NCBI RefSeq assembly: GCF_000376105.1 | Contig: NZ_AQWM01000007.1 | Location: 62,459-126,458 of the forward strand | Reading direction: 5' to 3' | Source: Asticcacaulis benevestitus DSM 16100 = ATCC BAA-896 | GTDB taxonomy: Bacteria > Pseudomonadota > Alphaproteobacteria > Caulobacterales > Caulobacteraceae | DNA: 64,000 nt | Shown here: one piece after another, positions 48,720-60,214 of the stretch | Numbering within the stretch: position 1 is the first letter of the stretch | Layout of the letters: each line of letters begins with the position of its first letter | Made by a program: the position numbers and the translations under genes | The notes under the pieces: generated by a model | Told to the model about the DNA's origin: nothing | What the model saw: the letters and a program-made list of their open reading frames with translations, nothing else | The model's database searches: none

Positions 48720-49922
48720 ATGACCGTTACGTTTCAAGACATCGAAGCCGCCGCAGAACGCATCAAGGGCCACGTCGTCCGCACACCCTGCACCTTTTCA
48801 CAGCGCCTCAGCGCCTCGACGCGCACCAAGGTCTGGATCAAGTCGGAAAACCAGCAATACACCTCGGCCTTCAAGGAACGCGGCGCGCTCAACAAGCTGC
48901 TGCAACTGAGCGATGACGAGCGCAGCCGCGGCGTCTTCGCGGCGTCCGCCGGCAACCACGCGCAAGGCCTGGCCTACCACGCCCAGCGCCTGGGCATCCC
49001 GGCCACCATCGTCATGCCGGTCGGCACCCCCTTCGTGAAGGTGCAGAAGACGCAGAGCTTCGGCGCTAATATCGTAATCGAAGGCGCCACCTACGATGAA
49101 TCCTCGGCCATCGCCCAGAAGCAGTGCACGGAAAAAGGCGGCGTTTACGTCCATCCGTTCAACGACCGCGACGTCCTCATCGGTCAGGGCACGCTGGTCA
49201 TCGAAATGCTGGAAGACGCGCCAGAACTCGACGTCATTCTGGTGCCGATCGGCGGCGGCGGGCTGATCGCCGGCGCGGCCATCGCCGCCAAGGCCATCAA
49301 GCCTTGGATCAAGGTGATTGGCGTCGAAGCGGCCATGTTCCCCTCCTTCACCGCCCGCCGGCGCAACATGCCGATCCCCATGGGCGGCGCCACCATCGCC
49401 GAAGGCATCGCCGTGCGTGAGGTCGGTGACATCAGTTTCAACCTCGCCAATCCGCTGGTCGATGACGTGCTGATCATCGATGAGGCCGATTTCGAGCGCG
49501 GCATCGCCGCCTACGCCAATATCGAGAAAACCATAGCCGAAGGCGCCGGCGCCGCCGGTCTGGCCGCCGTCATGCGCTTTCCGGAAAAGTTCGAGGGGCT
49601 GAATGTCGGCCTGATCCTGTGCGGCGGCAATATCGACCTGCGCCTGCTGGCCTCGGTGCTGCAACGCGAACTGGTGCGCGAAAAACGGCTTGTCACCTAC
49701 CGAATCCTGGGCGACGATCGCCCCGGCATGTTATCGCTGATGGCCGATGTGATCTCGTCCAAAGGGGGCAACATCGTCGATGTGGCGCACAATCGGCTGG
49801 TGCTCGATGTACCCGCCAAGGGCGCCGAATTCGACATTATGGTGGAAACCCAGGACGCCCGCCACGCCTTTGAAATATCAGAAGCCCTCAGGAGCACCGG
49901 TTATGCCTTACGTATGGACTAA
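48720..49922 (+). CDS. ilvA: threonine ammonia-lyase (short form with ACT domain)
   Basis: A 400-residue PLP enzyme that converts threonine to 2-oxobutanoate. The PLP lysine is Lys52 in TSAFKERGALNKL, the phosphate loop is PIGGGGLIAGAAIA near residue 180, and the NHAQGLAY segment is conserved. The C-terminal 80 residues are a single ACT-type domain (RILGDDRPGMLSLMADVISS), the short TdcB-like layout rather than the long IlvA. The ATG at 48720 has GGGAGG five bases upstream. The next gene starts inside its 3' end. Confidence 0.85.
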   Translation: MTVTFQDIEAAAERIKGHVVRTPCTFSQRLSASTRTKVWIKSENQQYTSAFKERGALNKLLQLSDDERSRGVFAASAGNHAQGLAYHAQRLGIPATIVMPVGTPFVKVQKTQSFGANIVIEGATYDESSAIAQKQCTEKGGVYVHPFNDRDVLIGQGTLVIEMLEDAPELDVILVPIGGGGLIAGAAIAAKAIKPWIKVIGVEAAMFPSFTARRRNMPIPMGGATIAEGIAVREVGDISFNLANPLVDDVLIIDEADFERGIAAYANIEKTIAEGAGAAGLAAVMRFPEKFEGLNVGLILCGGNIDLRLLASVLQRELVREKRLVTYRILGDDRPGMLSLMADVISSKGGNIVDVAHNRLVLDVPAKGAEFDIMVETQDARHAFEISEALRSTGYALRMD

Positions 49923-50439
49923 AAAGTCTGGCGCATGGATTAAAAAGACCTCCATTTTCGCTATCGCTTTCATTCTTACCGCATGTGGACAAGCCATGGA
50001 CAAGACCCAAGCCCAAACTCCCGATCAGATTTCTGTCGCCGAACAGAACCTCAAAACCGGTCAGGACTTCCTGGCGAAGACCGCAGCCGTGCCCGGCGTC
50101 GTCACCCTGCCGTCGGGCGTGCTGTACAAGACCGTATCGCGCTCACAAAATCCCGGCGCACAGCCGACCGTGGCCGACAACGTGACCATCCACTATGAGG
50201 GCACGCTGCTCGATGGTTCGGTGTTCGATTCGTCCTACAAGCGCAATGAACCGGCTACCTTCCCGCTCGGCCGCCTGATCTCCGCCTGGCAGCAGGTCAT
50301 CCCGCTGATGCATGTGGGTGACGAAATCGTCCTCTACACGCCGCCGACCGCCGCCTATGGCGAGCGCGACCTTGGCGAGATCCCGCCCAACTCGACGCTG
50401 ATCTTCCGCGTGCAGCTTCTCGGCATCGGCGGTCAGTAA
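49903..50439 (+). CDS. FKBP-type peptidyl-prolyl isomerase lipoprotein, copy 1
   Basis: A 178-residue protein: a lipoprotein-like N-terminus (FAIAFILTAC, Cys near residue 24), a helical linker and a C-terminal FKBP domain (VTLPSGVLYKTVSR, DNVTIHYEGTLLDGSVFDSSY, PLGRLISAWQQVIPLMHVGDEIVLYTPPTAAYGERDLGEIPPNSTLIF). Cis-trans isomerisation of proline bonds in envelope proteins is expected. It starts at 49903 with AGGAG eight bases upstream, overlapping the ilvA end by 20 bases. The second copy starts at its last base. Confidence 0.85.
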   Translation: MPYVWTKKSGAWIKKTSIFAIAFILTACGQAMDKTQAQTPDQISVAEQNLKTGQDFLAKTAAVPGVVTLPSGVLYKTVSRSQNPGAQPTVADNVTIHYEGTLLDGSVFDSSYKRNEPATFPLGRLISAWQQVIPLMHVGDEIVLYTPPTAAYGERDLGEIPPNSTLIFRVQLLGIGGQ

Positions 50440-50963
50440 TGCGCTCAGTTATGCACTTTGGCCTGATCGCCGGCCTAGCCCTGCTCACCCTGACGGCTTG
50501 CGGCCGCTCCGCCAGCACCAGCGAACAACTGGAAGCCATGCAGGCCTCGGCCGATGCCATGGCCGCGCAAAACCTGAAAGACGGCGAAGCTTTCCTGGTC
50601 GAAACGGCCAAGCAGCCCGGCATCATCAAGTTGCCGTCGGGCGTGATGTACAAGATCGTGTCGCGCGCAGCCACACCCGGCGCGCAGCCCACGATCAATG
50701 ACACCGTCAAGATCAATTACGAAGGCAAGCTGTTGAACGGCAAGGTGTTCGATTCGTCCTATGACCGTCACGAAGCGGCAGAATTCCCGCTTGGCCGCCT
50801 GATCCCCGCCTGGCAAGAGGTTATCCCGCTTCTGCACGTCGGCGATGAGGTGACCCTCTATACACCACCGTCCTCCGGCTATGGCGAGCGCGATGCCGGT
50901 GATATCCCGCCCAACAGCACGCTTATCTTCCGGATACAGCTTCTCGGCGTTCAGGGGAAATAG
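50439..50963 (+). CDS. FKBP-type peptidyl-prolyl isomerase lipoprotein, copy 2
   Basis: A 174-residue tandem paralogue of the preceding gene. Lipobox LLTLTAC (Cys21), then the FKBP core KLPSGVMYKIVSR, DTVKINYEGKLLNGKVFDSSYDRHE, PLGRLIPAWQEVIPLLHVGDEVTLYTPPSSGYGERDAGDIPPNSTLIF. The ATG overlaps the TAA of copy 1 by one base (TAATG), so they are coupled. The pair looks like a recent duplication with divergence. Confidence 0.85.
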   Translation: MRSVMHFGLIAGLALLTLTACGRSASTSEQLEAMQASADAMAAQNLKDGEAFLVETAKQPGIIKLPSGVMYKIVSRAATPGAQPTINDTVKINYEGKLLNGKVFDSSYDRHEAAEFPLGRLIPAWQEVIPLLHVGDEVTLYTPPSSGYGERDAGDIPPNSTLIFRIQLLGVQGK

Positions 50964-56941: not shown

Positions 56942-57928
56942 CTATATTACCGGGTGTTCTTCACTGAAAACACCACCGTGCGCCTCGGCCAGCCCCTGGG
57001 GATCGGGATGGATCAGGATATCGGCGTTGGGAAAGGCATCCAGCAGGCGCTTTTCGGCGGCGATAATGATCTGGTGGGCCGCATCTAATGTCAGGTCCGG
57101 CGCCATTTCGACATGGGCCTGAATAAGGATGTAGGGGCCGGTCAGGCGGGTGCGCAACTGGTGGACGCCCAGTACCTGCGGATCGGCCAAAATCAACACG
57201 CGTACACGCTCAAGGTCGCCGTCATCGAGGGCACGGTCCATCAGGTGATCGGCGGCTTCGCGCAACACCTGCACGGCGCCCCAGATGAACCAGGCGGCCA
57301 TCAGGAAACCGGCGATGGCGTCCATATAACCCATACCGAGTACGGCCAGCACGACACCGATCAGCGCCACGCCATTGCTGACCAGATCGGTGACATAGTG
57401 CATGCGGTCGGCCGAAATGGCGACCGACTGACTGTCCTTCAGCACGCGGTTTTGCAAGGCGACTAGGCCGAGCGTCAGGGCGATAGAGAGGACCAGCACG
57501 CCGATCGCCAGACCTGATTGCTGGATAGGTTCGGGATGCTGCAGATGGTGCAGACACGACTGCATGATGATGGCCGCCGAGGCGAAGACCAACGCTGCCT
57601 GAAACAGCGCGCTGAAAGCTTCCGCCTTGCCATGGCCGAACGGATGCTCCTTGTCAGGTGGCGACTTGGCATAGCGCACGGCGGCGAAGGTGATGACAGA
57701 GGCGAGCAGATCAAGGCCGGAATCGGCCAGCGAGGCCAGGATCGACTGCGAGCCGGAGACATAGAGCGTGACGCCCTTCATGGCCACCATAACGCAGGCC
57801 ACGAGCACCGACGCGGAGGAGGCCAGCAGCACCAGGCTTTCCGGTGCCAAGTTTTGCGGCAGAAGGCGATGAAAGGCCGGCCCCTTGGGCGTGAGATGGG
57901 AATGATCGGATTTGACAGGGCTCGACAT
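56942..57928 (-). CDS. cation diffusion facilitator transporter
   Basis: A 328-residue CDF family member (FieF/ZitB-like) exporting divalent metals such as zinc or iron. Six hydrophobic helices with the metal-site motifs SLADSGLDLL (site A, first DxxxD-type) and the HYVTDLVSN motif (second) are seen, then the C-terminal cytoplasmic domain with IQAHVEM and NADILIHPDPQG. The D-x-x-x-D and H-x-x-x-D residues are all present. It lies 57 bases upstream of the GST gene, so perhaps in the same transcript. Confidence 0.88.
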   Translation of the reverse strand: MSSPVKSDHSHLTPKGPAFHRLLPQNLAPESLVLLASSASVLVACVMVAMKGVTLYVSGSQSILASLADSGLDLLASVITFAAVRYAKSPPDKEHPFGHGKAEAFSALFQAALVFASAAIIMQSCLHHLQHPEPIQQSGLAIGVLVLSIALTLGLVALQNRVLKDSQSVAISADRMHYVTDLVSNGVALIGVVLAVLGMGYMDAIAGFLMAAWFIWGAVQVLREAADHLMDRALDDGDLERVRVLILADPQVLGVHQLRTRLTGPYILIQAHVEMAPDLTLDAAHQIIIAAEKRLLDAFPNADILIHPDPQGLAEAHGGVFSEEHPVI

Positions 57929-58127
57929 GCGCCAAGCCTTATCACTTCGAAGCCTGACTGCAAAGTCCGCACGTCAAAGGCGAAGGAGTCACGAAACCGT
58001 GCGCGAGAAACGTGTTAACAATTGGTAAATGCGCCTTGGTCTTTACGATATATGGTTGTAAACCGGATTCAATAATCAATCTTGATAAATGGTAGCTGTT
58101 TTTCGTTCTAAATTACAGGGTGTTACT

Positions 58128-59333
58128 ATGTCGCGCGTATGGATCAGCCGAACCGAGGCGCTCAAGCGTCTCGATGTCAAGCCGCAAACCCTCTATGCCT
58201 ATGTCAGCCGACAGCGCATAGCCGCCAAGAGCGATCCCTCGCATCCGCGCATGAGCCTCTACGCCCTCGATGATGTCGAGCGCCTGTCACGCCGCGCACC
58301 CGGCCGCCTCGCCCGCACCGTACACGGCAGCGCCACGCCTGCAGACCGTCCGCTGCAAAGCCTTTCCGGCGGCACCATCACGCGAGGCGAAGCAGCCATT
58401 GATACCGAAATCGCCATCACCATCGATGGCCACCACTATATCCGCGGCCGCGATATCGTCAGCCTTGCCGCCAGCGAGAATTTCGAGGCCGTGGCGGCGC
58501 TGCTGTGGCGCGCCGAGACCAGCAATCCGTTCGGCCCGCTCAAGCCCCGCCCCGATGTCAACTTCCCCGGCGGGCCGCGCACCCGCGTGCTCTCCATGCT
58601 GAGCCGCCGCCTGGAAGAAGACGCCCTGTCCGACATCGATTCGTCACGTGATCTGGGCACGGAAGCCGCCAGCCTCCTCAACGAGATGTTCGATTCGGTT
58701 ACCAATGGCGGACCGCGCCTGTTCTTTCACCAGCGCCTGGCGCGGGCATGGAAGGTCTATGACGCCAAGGATGTCGATCTGCTGCGACGCGCCCTTGTCC
58801 TGTGCGCCGACACCAACCTCGATGAAGCGACCCTGGCGGTGCGCGTCTCAGCCGCCACCATGGGCCCACTCGCCATCCCGCTGATGTCGGGCTTCGCCAC
58901 CCTGACGGGCCCCAAACTCGGTGGCCGCATCTCGCGGGCAGAGTCCTACGTCACAGCCGTGCGCCGCAGCGGCAATCCGCTGTCTCTGGCCAAGTCGCTG
59001 CTGGAAAAAGGCCTTGAGCTGCCGGGCTTTGAAAAAGACCCTTCGCCTTCGGAAACCTTGCGGGCCTACGACCTGATCAACGCCGCACCGCATATGGGCG
59101 AAGACCTGAAAGCCATTCTGCGCGTCGGGGAAGACCTGACCGGCCAGAGCGTCGGCATGTCGCTGGCCCTGGCCCTTATCGGCCGCCACCTCGACCTGCC
59201 GCGTGAAGCACCTGTAACGCTCTACGGGCTCAGCCGCAGCGCGGGCTGGCTCGCCCACGCCATCGAGCAGATGCAAACGGGCGCTTCGCCCAAAGCCCGC
59301 CTGCGCTACATCGGCGTACACCCGCAAGCCTAG
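58128..59333 (+). CDS. MerR-type HTH fused to a citrate synthase-like domain (catalytic residues lost)
   Basis: A 401-residue fusion. Residues 1-60 form a MerR-like HTH (ISRTEALKRLDVKPQTLYAYVSRQRIA). Residues 80-390 follow the citrate synthase fold, with ADTN where active enzymes have ADHE (Thr229 for the first catalytic His), GPKLGG for GPxHGG (Leu264 for the second) and VGM (residues 342-344) at the place of the N-V-D Asp. All three catalytic residues therefore appear to be replaced. The C-terminal SRSAGWLAHAIEQ and ARLRYIG are kept. It is probably a regulator that senses a metabolite with an inactive citrate synthase domain. The ATG at 58128 has AGGG seven bases upstream. Confidence 0.82.
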   Translation: MSRVWISRTEALKRLDVKPQTLYAYVSRQRIAAKSDPSHPRMSLYALDDVERLSRRAPGRLARTVHGSATPADRPLQSLSGGTITRGEAAIDTEIAITIDGHHYIRGRDIVSLAASENFEAVAALLWRAETSNPFGPLKPRPDVNFPGGPRTRVLSMLSRRLEEDALSDIDSSRDLGTEAASLLNEMFDSVTNGGPRLFFHQRLARAWKVYDAKDVDLLRRALVLCADTNLDEATLAVRVSAATMGPLAIPLMSGFATLTGPKLGGRISRAESYVTAVRRSGNPLSLAKSLLEKGLELPGFEKDPSPSETLRAYDLINAAPHMGEDLKAILRVGEDLTGQSVGMSLALALIGRHLDLPREAPVTLYGLSRSAGWLAHAIEQMQTGASPKARLRYIGVHPQA

Positions 59334-59410: not shown

Positions 59411-60214
59411 ATGCATTATCTGTTGGCAGCGCTTCTGGGTCTGATCGAAGGACTCACGGAGTTCCTTCCTGTGTCCTCCACCGCGCACTTGCTTATCTCT
59501 GAAAAATTGCTGGGCTTCAGCGATCCGGGTGGCAATTTCACCGTCATGATCCAGTTGGGCGCCATCCTGGCGGTCGTCGTGCTGTATTTTGCCCGGCTAT
59601 GGAAGGCGGTCATCACCTTGCCGACCTCTGAGGAATCGCGCCGTTTCGCACTCAGCGTCATCATCGCCTTCATTCCCGCTGTCATCTTCGGCGTGATTAT
59701 CAAGAAATCCGGCCTTCTGGCGGCGTTGTTCGATAATATACCCGTTATCTGCATTGCCCTTATCGTGGGCGGTATCGCGCTGTGGGCGGTCGACAAATAC
59801 GGCCCGGCGCCGACTAGCGACGACTCGATGAAACTGGACCTCAAAACCTCACTGATCATCGGTTTGTTTCAGTGCCTGGCCATCATCCCCGGCATGTCGC
59901 GCTCGGGATCGACCCTGATTGGCGCCATGGTCTGCAAGGTGGATAAGCGGGCCGGTGCGGAATTTTCCTTCTTCCTCGCCATCCCGACCATGCTGGGCGC
60001 CTTCGTGATGGAATTCGCCGACAGCCACAAGCTGCTCACCAGCGATCAGTACAGCTTCATCGCCATTGGTTTCGCGGTGGCGTTTATTTCTGCGCTGTTG
60101 GTCATCAAGCCCTTCATCACCTTCGTGCAGAAGCGTGGTTACGGCTTCTTCGCCCTGTGGCGTATCGTGGTGGGTGTCGGCGGCCTGGTCTGGTGGTTCG
60201 GGATGGCGCACTAA
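59411..60214 (+). CDS. uppP: undecaprenyl-diphosphatase UppP/BacA
   Basis: A 267-residue membrane protein recycling the undecaprenyl carrier for cell wall and O-antigen synthesis. Active-site motifs: EGLTEFLPVSSTAHLLI near residues 13-30 (E-x-x-x-E) and PGMSRSGSTLIGAM near 160 (the PGxSRSxxT motif). About seven hydrophobic helices. The ATG has a weak ribosome-binding site. It terminates at a strong bidirectional terminator shared with the chemoreceptor gene. Confidence 0.95.
   Translation: MHYLLAALLGLIEGLTEFLPVSSTAHLLISEKLLGFSDPGGNFTVMIQLGAILAVVVLYFARLWKAVITLPTSEESRRFALSVIIAFIPAVIFGVIIKKSGLLAALFDNIPVICIALIVGGIALWAVDKYGPAPTSDDSMKLDLKTSLIIGLFQCLAIIPGMSRSGSTLIGAMVCKVDKRAGAEFSFFLAIPTMLGAFVMEFADSHKLLTSDQYSFIAIGFAVAFISALLVIKPFITFVQKRGYGFFALWRIVVGVGGLVWWFGMAH

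Follow-up and report, generated by a model that had tools for sequence, protein, structure and literature searches.

A gene in the 64,000-nucleotide stretch of Asticcacaulis benevestitus DNA analysed here (the window) encodes a citrate synthase that carries an N-terminal helix-turn-helix (HTH) domain and has lost its catalytic residues. Selection has nevertheless held the protein, and a palindrome ahead of its gene has been kept as well; the most likely reading is therefore that of an enzyme that has turned into a gene regulator. The residue loss, the locus comparison, the conserved palindrome and the signs of selection on which this reading would rest are all seen at the level of sequence. 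The gene and its surroundings are:

56942..57928, minus strand: cation efflux (CDF) transporter gene, divergent from the HTH-citrate synthase gene (Pfam PF01545)
58075..58086, no strand assigned: palindrome ATCAA-tc-TTGAT (ATCAATCTTGAT), proposed operator, 41 bases upstream of the start codon
58128..59333, plus strand: HTH-citrate synthase pseudoenzyme gene, 401 amino acids (coding 58128-59330; open reading frame list, Pfam, AF2 model and Foldseek)
59411..60214, plus strand: uppP/bacA (undecaprenyl-diphosphatase; PF02673), 77 bases downstream of the HTH-citrate synthase gene

The AF2 model (mean pLDDT 80, with low confidence at residues 57-92 and 389-401) displays a winged HTH domain (about residues 1-56), a disordered linker (about 57-92) and a shortened citrate synthase part (about 93-388). 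The citrate synthase fold is recognised by PF00285 (86.5 bits, 2.4e-24, best stretch 196-385), and a Foldseek search with the model rendered citrate synthases, with Mycobacterium tuberculosis CitA as the best hit (E 7.4e-12). Alignment with relatives shows an N-terminal winged HTH with a QTLYAYVSR-like signature joined to the citrate synthase domain, which fits the HTH-citrate synthase (CitC-type) family. The N-terminal domain had previously been described as MerR-like; the HTH part of that description holds, but MerR_1 (PF13411; 0.44, 11.1 bits against a cut-off of 21.6) stays under the Pfam threshold for the MerR family, as does HTH_17 under its own (0.0033, 18.1 bits against 27). An in-frame ATG further upstream, at 58089, would give 414 amino acids; despite this, the start at 58128 is confirmed because relatives align from MSR onwards. 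For the plus strand the consensus scan yielded no promoter-like site. The closest named relatives are from Asticcacaulis (at most 87% identity), and the gene was present in all 24 same-genus genomes of the protein search and was found in 25 of 25 Asticcacaulis genomes. The synthases of the genome itself are GltA (L001), PrpC (L002, beside a PrpB-like gene) and the HTH-citrate synthase, with no CitB-like partner. Elsewhere in the window, at 49780-50963, two adjacent and similar short frames resemble FKBP-type peptidyl-prolyl isomerases by eye, an apparent tandem duplication.

The catalytic residues of citrate synthase are, in E. coli/pig numbering, H264 (GPxHGG), H305 (GFGH) and D362, and the ligand residues in E. 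coli numbering are H229 (oxaloacetate), R314, R387 and R407'. Residue alignments place the corresponding codons as follows:

58812..58814, plus strand: T229 (E. coli H229 column)
58917..58919, plus strand: L264 (catalytic H264 column)
59034..59036, plus strand: K303 (catalytic H305 column; GFEK for GFGH)
59061..59063, plus strand: R312 (E. coli R314 column), retained
59160..59162, plus strand: S345 (catalytic D362 column; adjoins VGM 342-344)
59235..59237, plus strand: R370 (E. coli R387 column), retained

An earlier note on this DNA had claimed the loss of three catalytic residues, citing Thr229, Leu264 and an Asp region reading VGM. The alignment agrees on T229 and L264 and on the loss of the Asp, although the Asp column falls on S345, beside the VGM (342-344) that the note quotes. 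Three catalytic residues are indeed lost (L264, K303 and S345), but the His of ADHE is not one of them, as we take it to be H229, the oxaloacetate ligand; the GFGH site with H305, here GFEK with K303, had been overlooked, and four functional residues are gone overall. All four (H229, H264, H305 and D362) are absent in the alignment of 25 of 25 Asticcacaulis genomes, where the columns hold T15/N9/V1, L19/M6, A11/K8/R3/T3 and S16/T9, respectively. GltA and PrpC of the same genome read H, H, H, D at these columns. A His or Asp shifted to another place in the chain was considered and rejected, since several alignments reveal no displaced copy, in line with the note.

Two of the ligand residues remain: the Arg314 column is kept in all 25 Asticcacaulis genomes and the Arg387 column in 24 of 24 readable copies, the exception being the frameshifted copy of genome G018. 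In that copy (L076) the last 55 residues lie in another frame, by a true frameshift or an assembly error. The column of Arg407' depends on the alignment, with K389 (or K, N, R, H) in one and Arg in another, and is given no weight here. The two kept arginines, Arg314 and Arg387, are compatible with an anionic ligand; they could also be structural.

Relatives were gathered by a protein search in 61 genomes and a profile search in 149 Caulobacteraceae genomes, and 115 stretches taken from part of the matching genomes contained 112 complete HTH-citrate synthases and, in divergent orientation, 56 CitB-like partners. H229, H264, D362 and R387 are kept in all 56 copies paired with a CitB-like synthase, and H305 and R314 in 55 each (one Gln and one Cys, respectively); in genus g32 the HTH-citrate synthases keep all catalytic residues in 20 of 20 copies. 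A class-wide sample of 142 genomes contained 14 with a match at 1e-35. Outside Caulobacteraceae, H229, H264 and D362 are kept in 12 of 12 matching genomes and H305 in 11 (one Gln), and a CitB-like partner with Glu is visible in the short flanks of seven of the 12. The intact divergent pair is thus the common state, and the assertion that HTH-citrate synthases keep their His residues is borne out by these two sets for H229 and H264. A more distant copy from Xanthobacteraceae (L050) has Leu at H264 and the other three residues kept. The CitB-like partners (for example L162, L146 and L106) have Glu at the D362 column in 56 of 56, and the M. tuberculosis CitA stretch at the D362 motif reads NVEFW; if C. 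crescentus CitB belongs to the Glu-bearing partners, a Glu enzyme is active in E. coli.

That all HTH-citrate synthases of the Caulobacterales are dead, an extension raised in the earlier note, was rejected because the 56 paired copies retain H229, H264 and D362; the altered sites are concentrated in one clade; another, distant group is dead as well, and single losses occur sporadically. Among solo copies outside the dead clade, those of g12, three of the four in g13 and individual ones from g7 and g31 are intact. Those of g30 have Gln at H305 in three of six and Pro at H264 in one of six, and one or two residues are lost in g24 and g28. The second group in Caulobacteraceae is deeply separate (L102, L123, L139 and L145) and is without H264, H305 and D362 in four of four copies, which suggests more than one loss of catalysis among HTH-citrate synthases.

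The phylogenetic tree comprised 82 rows and was built without the four residue columns, with groups g32, g7 and g31 thinned and 29 of the 56 paired copies omitted. The frameshifted L076 was left out of the tree and of the pN/pS and column-variability counts; of the two fragments in G027, L053 was tallied apart and L052 omitted, as was L100, a fragment from G173. The copies of g1 (Asticcacaulis), g3, g4, g8 and g10 group in a single clade (37 rows, support 99/98), and H264 is absent from every one of them. Some members near its base retain H305 and D362, with HFHD in g4, TYHD in g10 and DLHD in one g3 copy (in the order H229, H264, H305, D362), and g8 reads QAGD. As the basal forks of the clade are open, we can only infer that H264 was lost first. 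Independent pairs for relating partner loss to residue loss numbered only four, which is too few.

The dead clade shares a locus in which queG, gst and the CDF gene are on the opposite strand, followed by the HTH-citrate synthase and then uppP on the same strand, with no citB. In Asticcacaulis uppP adjoins the HTH-citrate synthase in 18 of 20 loci (including directly downstream in L080, L082, L087 and L088), the exceptions being L085, which ends with its contig, and L070, where the next 3.9 kb contain no uppP. Of the 20 loci, 18 have a CDF match; it is missing from L077 and L078, and L071 shows just a short match. The 77-base gap to uppP, where the consensus scan called no terminator-like site, and the conserved order suggest that the two genes are co-transcribed. 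The CDF gene also adjoins the pair in pair-bearing genomes (for example G069, G030, G131 and G160), and there uppP lies farther beyond the HTH-citrate synthase, at 6-8 kb in G030, G069 and G131 and at 43-46 kb in G081, G133 and G160.

In nine of 38 genomes tested (G025, G062, G063, G064, G119, G134, G146, G154 and G158) the CDF and uppP matches are side by side, 138-230 bases apart, without room for an HTH-citrate synthase. Among the matches listed, seven of 23 g3 genomes (G119, G134, G138, G142, G146, G154 and G158) have a match at the level of an ordinary synthase only, and CDF and uppP are adjacent in five of the five tested from these seven. One genome (G033) has a residue-poor copy at the CDF/uppP locus and an intact pair elsewhere. 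The locus comparison points to a likely order of events: the pair, loss of the partner, a dead HTH-citrate synthase and, in some lineages, nothing.

The regions upstream of the HTH-citrate synthases were compared after omission of five copies without the QTLYA motif (L102, L123, L129, L139 and L145). The commonest 7- and 8-mers belong to one motif in the paired genes and in Asticcacaulis, which is not the case in g3. The consensus is GTCAATCTTGATCAATATAATCAAT for the paired genes and TAATCAATCTTGATTA, a near-perfect palindrome, for Asticcacaulis. Of the 56 paired genes, 52 carry the core TCAATCTTGAT without change and the remaining four with one mismatch; in Asticcacaulis it is exact in 22 of 25 upstream regions, and two of the other three have a one-base insertion and one a substitution. 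In simple shuffles, an upstream region of 200 bases contains an exact core with a probability of about 5e-5. Of 28 pair-bearing genomes tested, 26 have a single exact copy of the 14-mer TCAATCTTGATCAA and two (G030 and G172) have none, and each of these single copies is at most 60 bases upstream of an HTH-citrate synthase match, among the matches listed. In g3 the palindrome is mostly absent (one of 15 at one mismatch, one at two and 13 at three or more). In Asticcacaulis it persists without a CDF gene beside it (L077 and L078) and, with a one-base insertion, without uppP (L070), so that the constant unit is the palindrome and the HTH-citrate synthase gene.

The 12-mer palindrome has three exact copies in the genome studied; only the one at 58075-58086 lies between genes and the other two are in reading frames, which leaves a broad regulon in this genome unsupported. 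At one mismatch or less there are 39 rows compared with two for the reversed control, and since most of the screened rows are in reading frames, near-matches appear to be common for other reasons. A rough coding test of 27 loci (30 of the 39 rows) left three that look intergenic: the gene's own promoter, L202 and L213. The last of these (G000:C5:101851-101862) is a one-mismatch palindrome and a possible second target. Across Asticcacaulis the palindrome is less exclusive to the locus than in the pairs: 15 of 25 genomes together hold 17 copies of the extended form ATCAATCTTGATNA, nine at the HTH-citrate synthase gene and eight elsewhere, and of these eight the sole one examined, in the genome studied, sits in a reading frame. 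The sequence ATCAATCTTGATGA is found away from the HTH-citrate synthase in six Asticcacaulis genomes (G004:C86, G005:C10, G014:C1, G018:C2, G022:C1:2222053 and G000:C8, L198); these copies perhaps represent one conserved coding spot, the copy in the genome studied being in a reading frame.

Fourteen HTH positions are invariant in Asticcacaulis and in the g32 and g7 pairs, and one is switched, from G29 to Q. Position 29 is Gln in 20 of 20 Asticcacaulis loci, and among the 87 others Gly in 86 and Asn in one. The outer operator bases of Asticcacaulis tend to A/T where paired operators have G/C. This correspondence is only suggestive because it represents a single evolutionary change.

The median pairwise pN/pS of the citrate synthase part is 0.353 in Asticcacaulis (19 rows), 0.464 in g32 (20), 0.423 in g7 (15) and 0.588 in g3 (15), and that of the HTH is 0.162, 0.295, 0.413 and 0.314, respectively; with pS at about 0.5-0.57 these ratios are a relative guide only. 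In the 19 Asticcacaulis rows 133 of 309 citrate synthase positions are invariant (130 in intact g32 and 134 in intact g7), as are 38 of 52 HTH positions, and the median identity is 0.88 in the HTH versus 0.69 in the citrate synthase part. The similarity to the intact groups in pN/pS and invariant positions indicates that the dead domain is held by selection in Asticcacaulis, and less so in g3. When the domain columns are ranked by variability, the four that lost their residues come out at 0.60-0.88 in Asticcacaulis, above the median, and at 0.87-0.96 in g3, and because of this variability the old active site in Asticcacaulis is not in itself under tight constraint. In g3 the dead state looks like decay, given the mostly missing palindrome, the higher pN/pS and the seven of 23 genomes with no proper match among the matches listed.

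The product of the HTH-citrate synthase gene is probably a transcription regulator of local reach, most likely acting as an autorepressor on its own unit, which in most genomes would include uppP. The ancestor would have had a divergent CitB-like gene and an HTH-citrate synthase gene with one shared control region. In this clade citB may then have been lost, followed by H264 and later by H305 and D362, while the citrate synthase part would have been retained as a dimerising and probably small-molecule-binding half. Such a dimer would bring its pair of winged HTH domains onto the promoter palindrome ATCAA-tc-TTGAT and might let go of it when a ligand, conceivably carboxylate- or acyl-CoA-like, fills the old active site. 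Repression rather than activation is suggested by the position of the site, only 41 bases from the gene's own start. The earlier idea of a regulator made from an inactive synthase is thus partly supported, and the operator-like palindrome makes it concrete. It is rather unlikely that the function extends to a ligand-sensing transcription factor in an uppP operon, in which a central-carbon signal would set the supply of the cell-wall lipid carrier through an operator inherited from the citB/citC circuit and retuned by the switch from G29 to Q in the HTH together with the change of outer operator bases from G/C to A/T.

The more specific proposal of the earlier note, a metabolite sensor in which oxaloacetate, citrate or acetyl-CoA would occupy the dead active site and thereby switch the HTH, is unsupported in that form and is a tentative possibility. 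The Arg314 and Arg387 columns are kept in Asticcacaulis and g3, and neither Asticcacaulis nor the g32 and g7 pairs show any variation in the PGF stretch (P299, G300 and F301), which presumably sits at the CoA adenine pocket. However, H229 has gone, one alignment gives K, N, R or H in the Arg407' column and another Arg, the pocket is altered by Leu/Met at the H264 column and Ser/Thr at the D362 column, and the lost columns vary more than the median domain column. An enzyme with other chemistry, acting through Ser/Thr345 and Arg312/370, is highly improbable: Ser or Thr does occupy the D362 column in 25 of 25, but with A/K/R/T at the H305 column and only L/M at the H264 column no acid-base pair is conserved at these columns.

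The HTH-citrate synthase could also be a leftover that became jobless after the loss of citB and is disappearing. Decay of this kind would agree with the four former functional columns of g3 being among the most variable (0.87-0.96), with the seven of 23 g3 genomes that have no proper match among the matches listed, with the nine of 38 genomes where CDF and uppP leave no room for the gene and with the frameshifted copy in G018. For Asticcacaulis it is unlikely, as the gene is present in 25 of 25 genomes, the palindrome is kept, 133 of 309 citrate synthase and 38 of 52 HTH positions are invariant and pN/pS is no higher than in the intact groups. It is quite unlikely that the palindrome is owned by another regulator, with an HTH that binds DNA elsewhere or not at all. 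The HTH models under their cut-offs and the eight of 17 extended palindromes away from the gene in Asticcacaulis would allow this, but a 14-mer present once per genome and only at the HTH-citrate synthase in 26 of 28 fits the product of the neighbouring gene better than a global factor, and the HTH is more conserved than the citrate synthase part in Asticcacaulis (0.88 versus 0.69).

An autorepressor derived from a citrate synthase would outline a route from enzyme to regulator: an intact pair loses first the partner, then H264 and then the remaining residues but preserves its DNA site, and sister lineages lose the gene. The predicted DNA site is simple to test by gel shift. Enzyme-derived regulators such as MocR, SorC/CggR, NrtR and PutA combine an HTH with an enzyme-fold sensor that is often catalytically dead. 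To our knowledge none of these uses a citrate synthase, and a literature search at the listing level found no work naming a citrate synthase-based transcription factor. As a pseudoenzyme-regulator candidate with a predicted operator, the protein belongs among the enzyme-derived regulators and is not a new category. The best fold match, M. tuberculosis CitA (PDB 8gmi and 8gm9; E 7.4e-12), is, in contrast, deposited as a citrate synthase, with matched chains of 353-374 residues and no HTH named.

In the available text on C. crescentus, CitA has a role in the cell cycle without enzymatic activity and is an active citrate synthase with 65% identity to E. coli GltA (PMC7083601). The protein described here likewise has a citrate synthase fold with a role that might be independent of catalysis, but CitA is an active enzyme and a different protein. 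The cell-cycle link drawn in the earlier note therefore has no direct application, as the moonlighting protein is CitA and the HTH-citrate synthase belongs with a locus of the citB/citC kind. According to the same text, citB (CCNA_03757) and citC (CCNA_03758) are neighbours by locus tag, CitB is 30% and CitC 32-33% identical to Caulobacter CitA and E. coli GltA, and CitB replaces E. coli gltA whereas CitC fails to (PMC7083601). In 20 g32 genomes the non-HTH partner is 29-33% identical to the GltA of the Asticcacaulis genome studied here over 371-392 amino acids and the HTH-citrate synthase 30-36% over 194-226. As far as the published identities reach, these values fit CitB as the non-HTH partner and CitC as the HTH-citrate synthase, although 'HTH' has no occurrence in the main text of PMC7083601.

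Caulobacter CitC would then be the intact counterpart of the Asticcacaulis protein, as g32 genomes carry the divergent pair. It differs in that g32 copies keep the catalytic residues, which are lost in Asticcacaulis together with citB. HTH-citrate synthases may be regulators even when the catalytic residues are present, which suggests a reason why Caulobacter CitC failed as a citrate synthase in E. coli. Within this CitC-type family, Asticcacaulis has the operator-like TCAATCTTGAT, but its divergent neighbour is the CDF transporter gene and not a CitB-like synthase.
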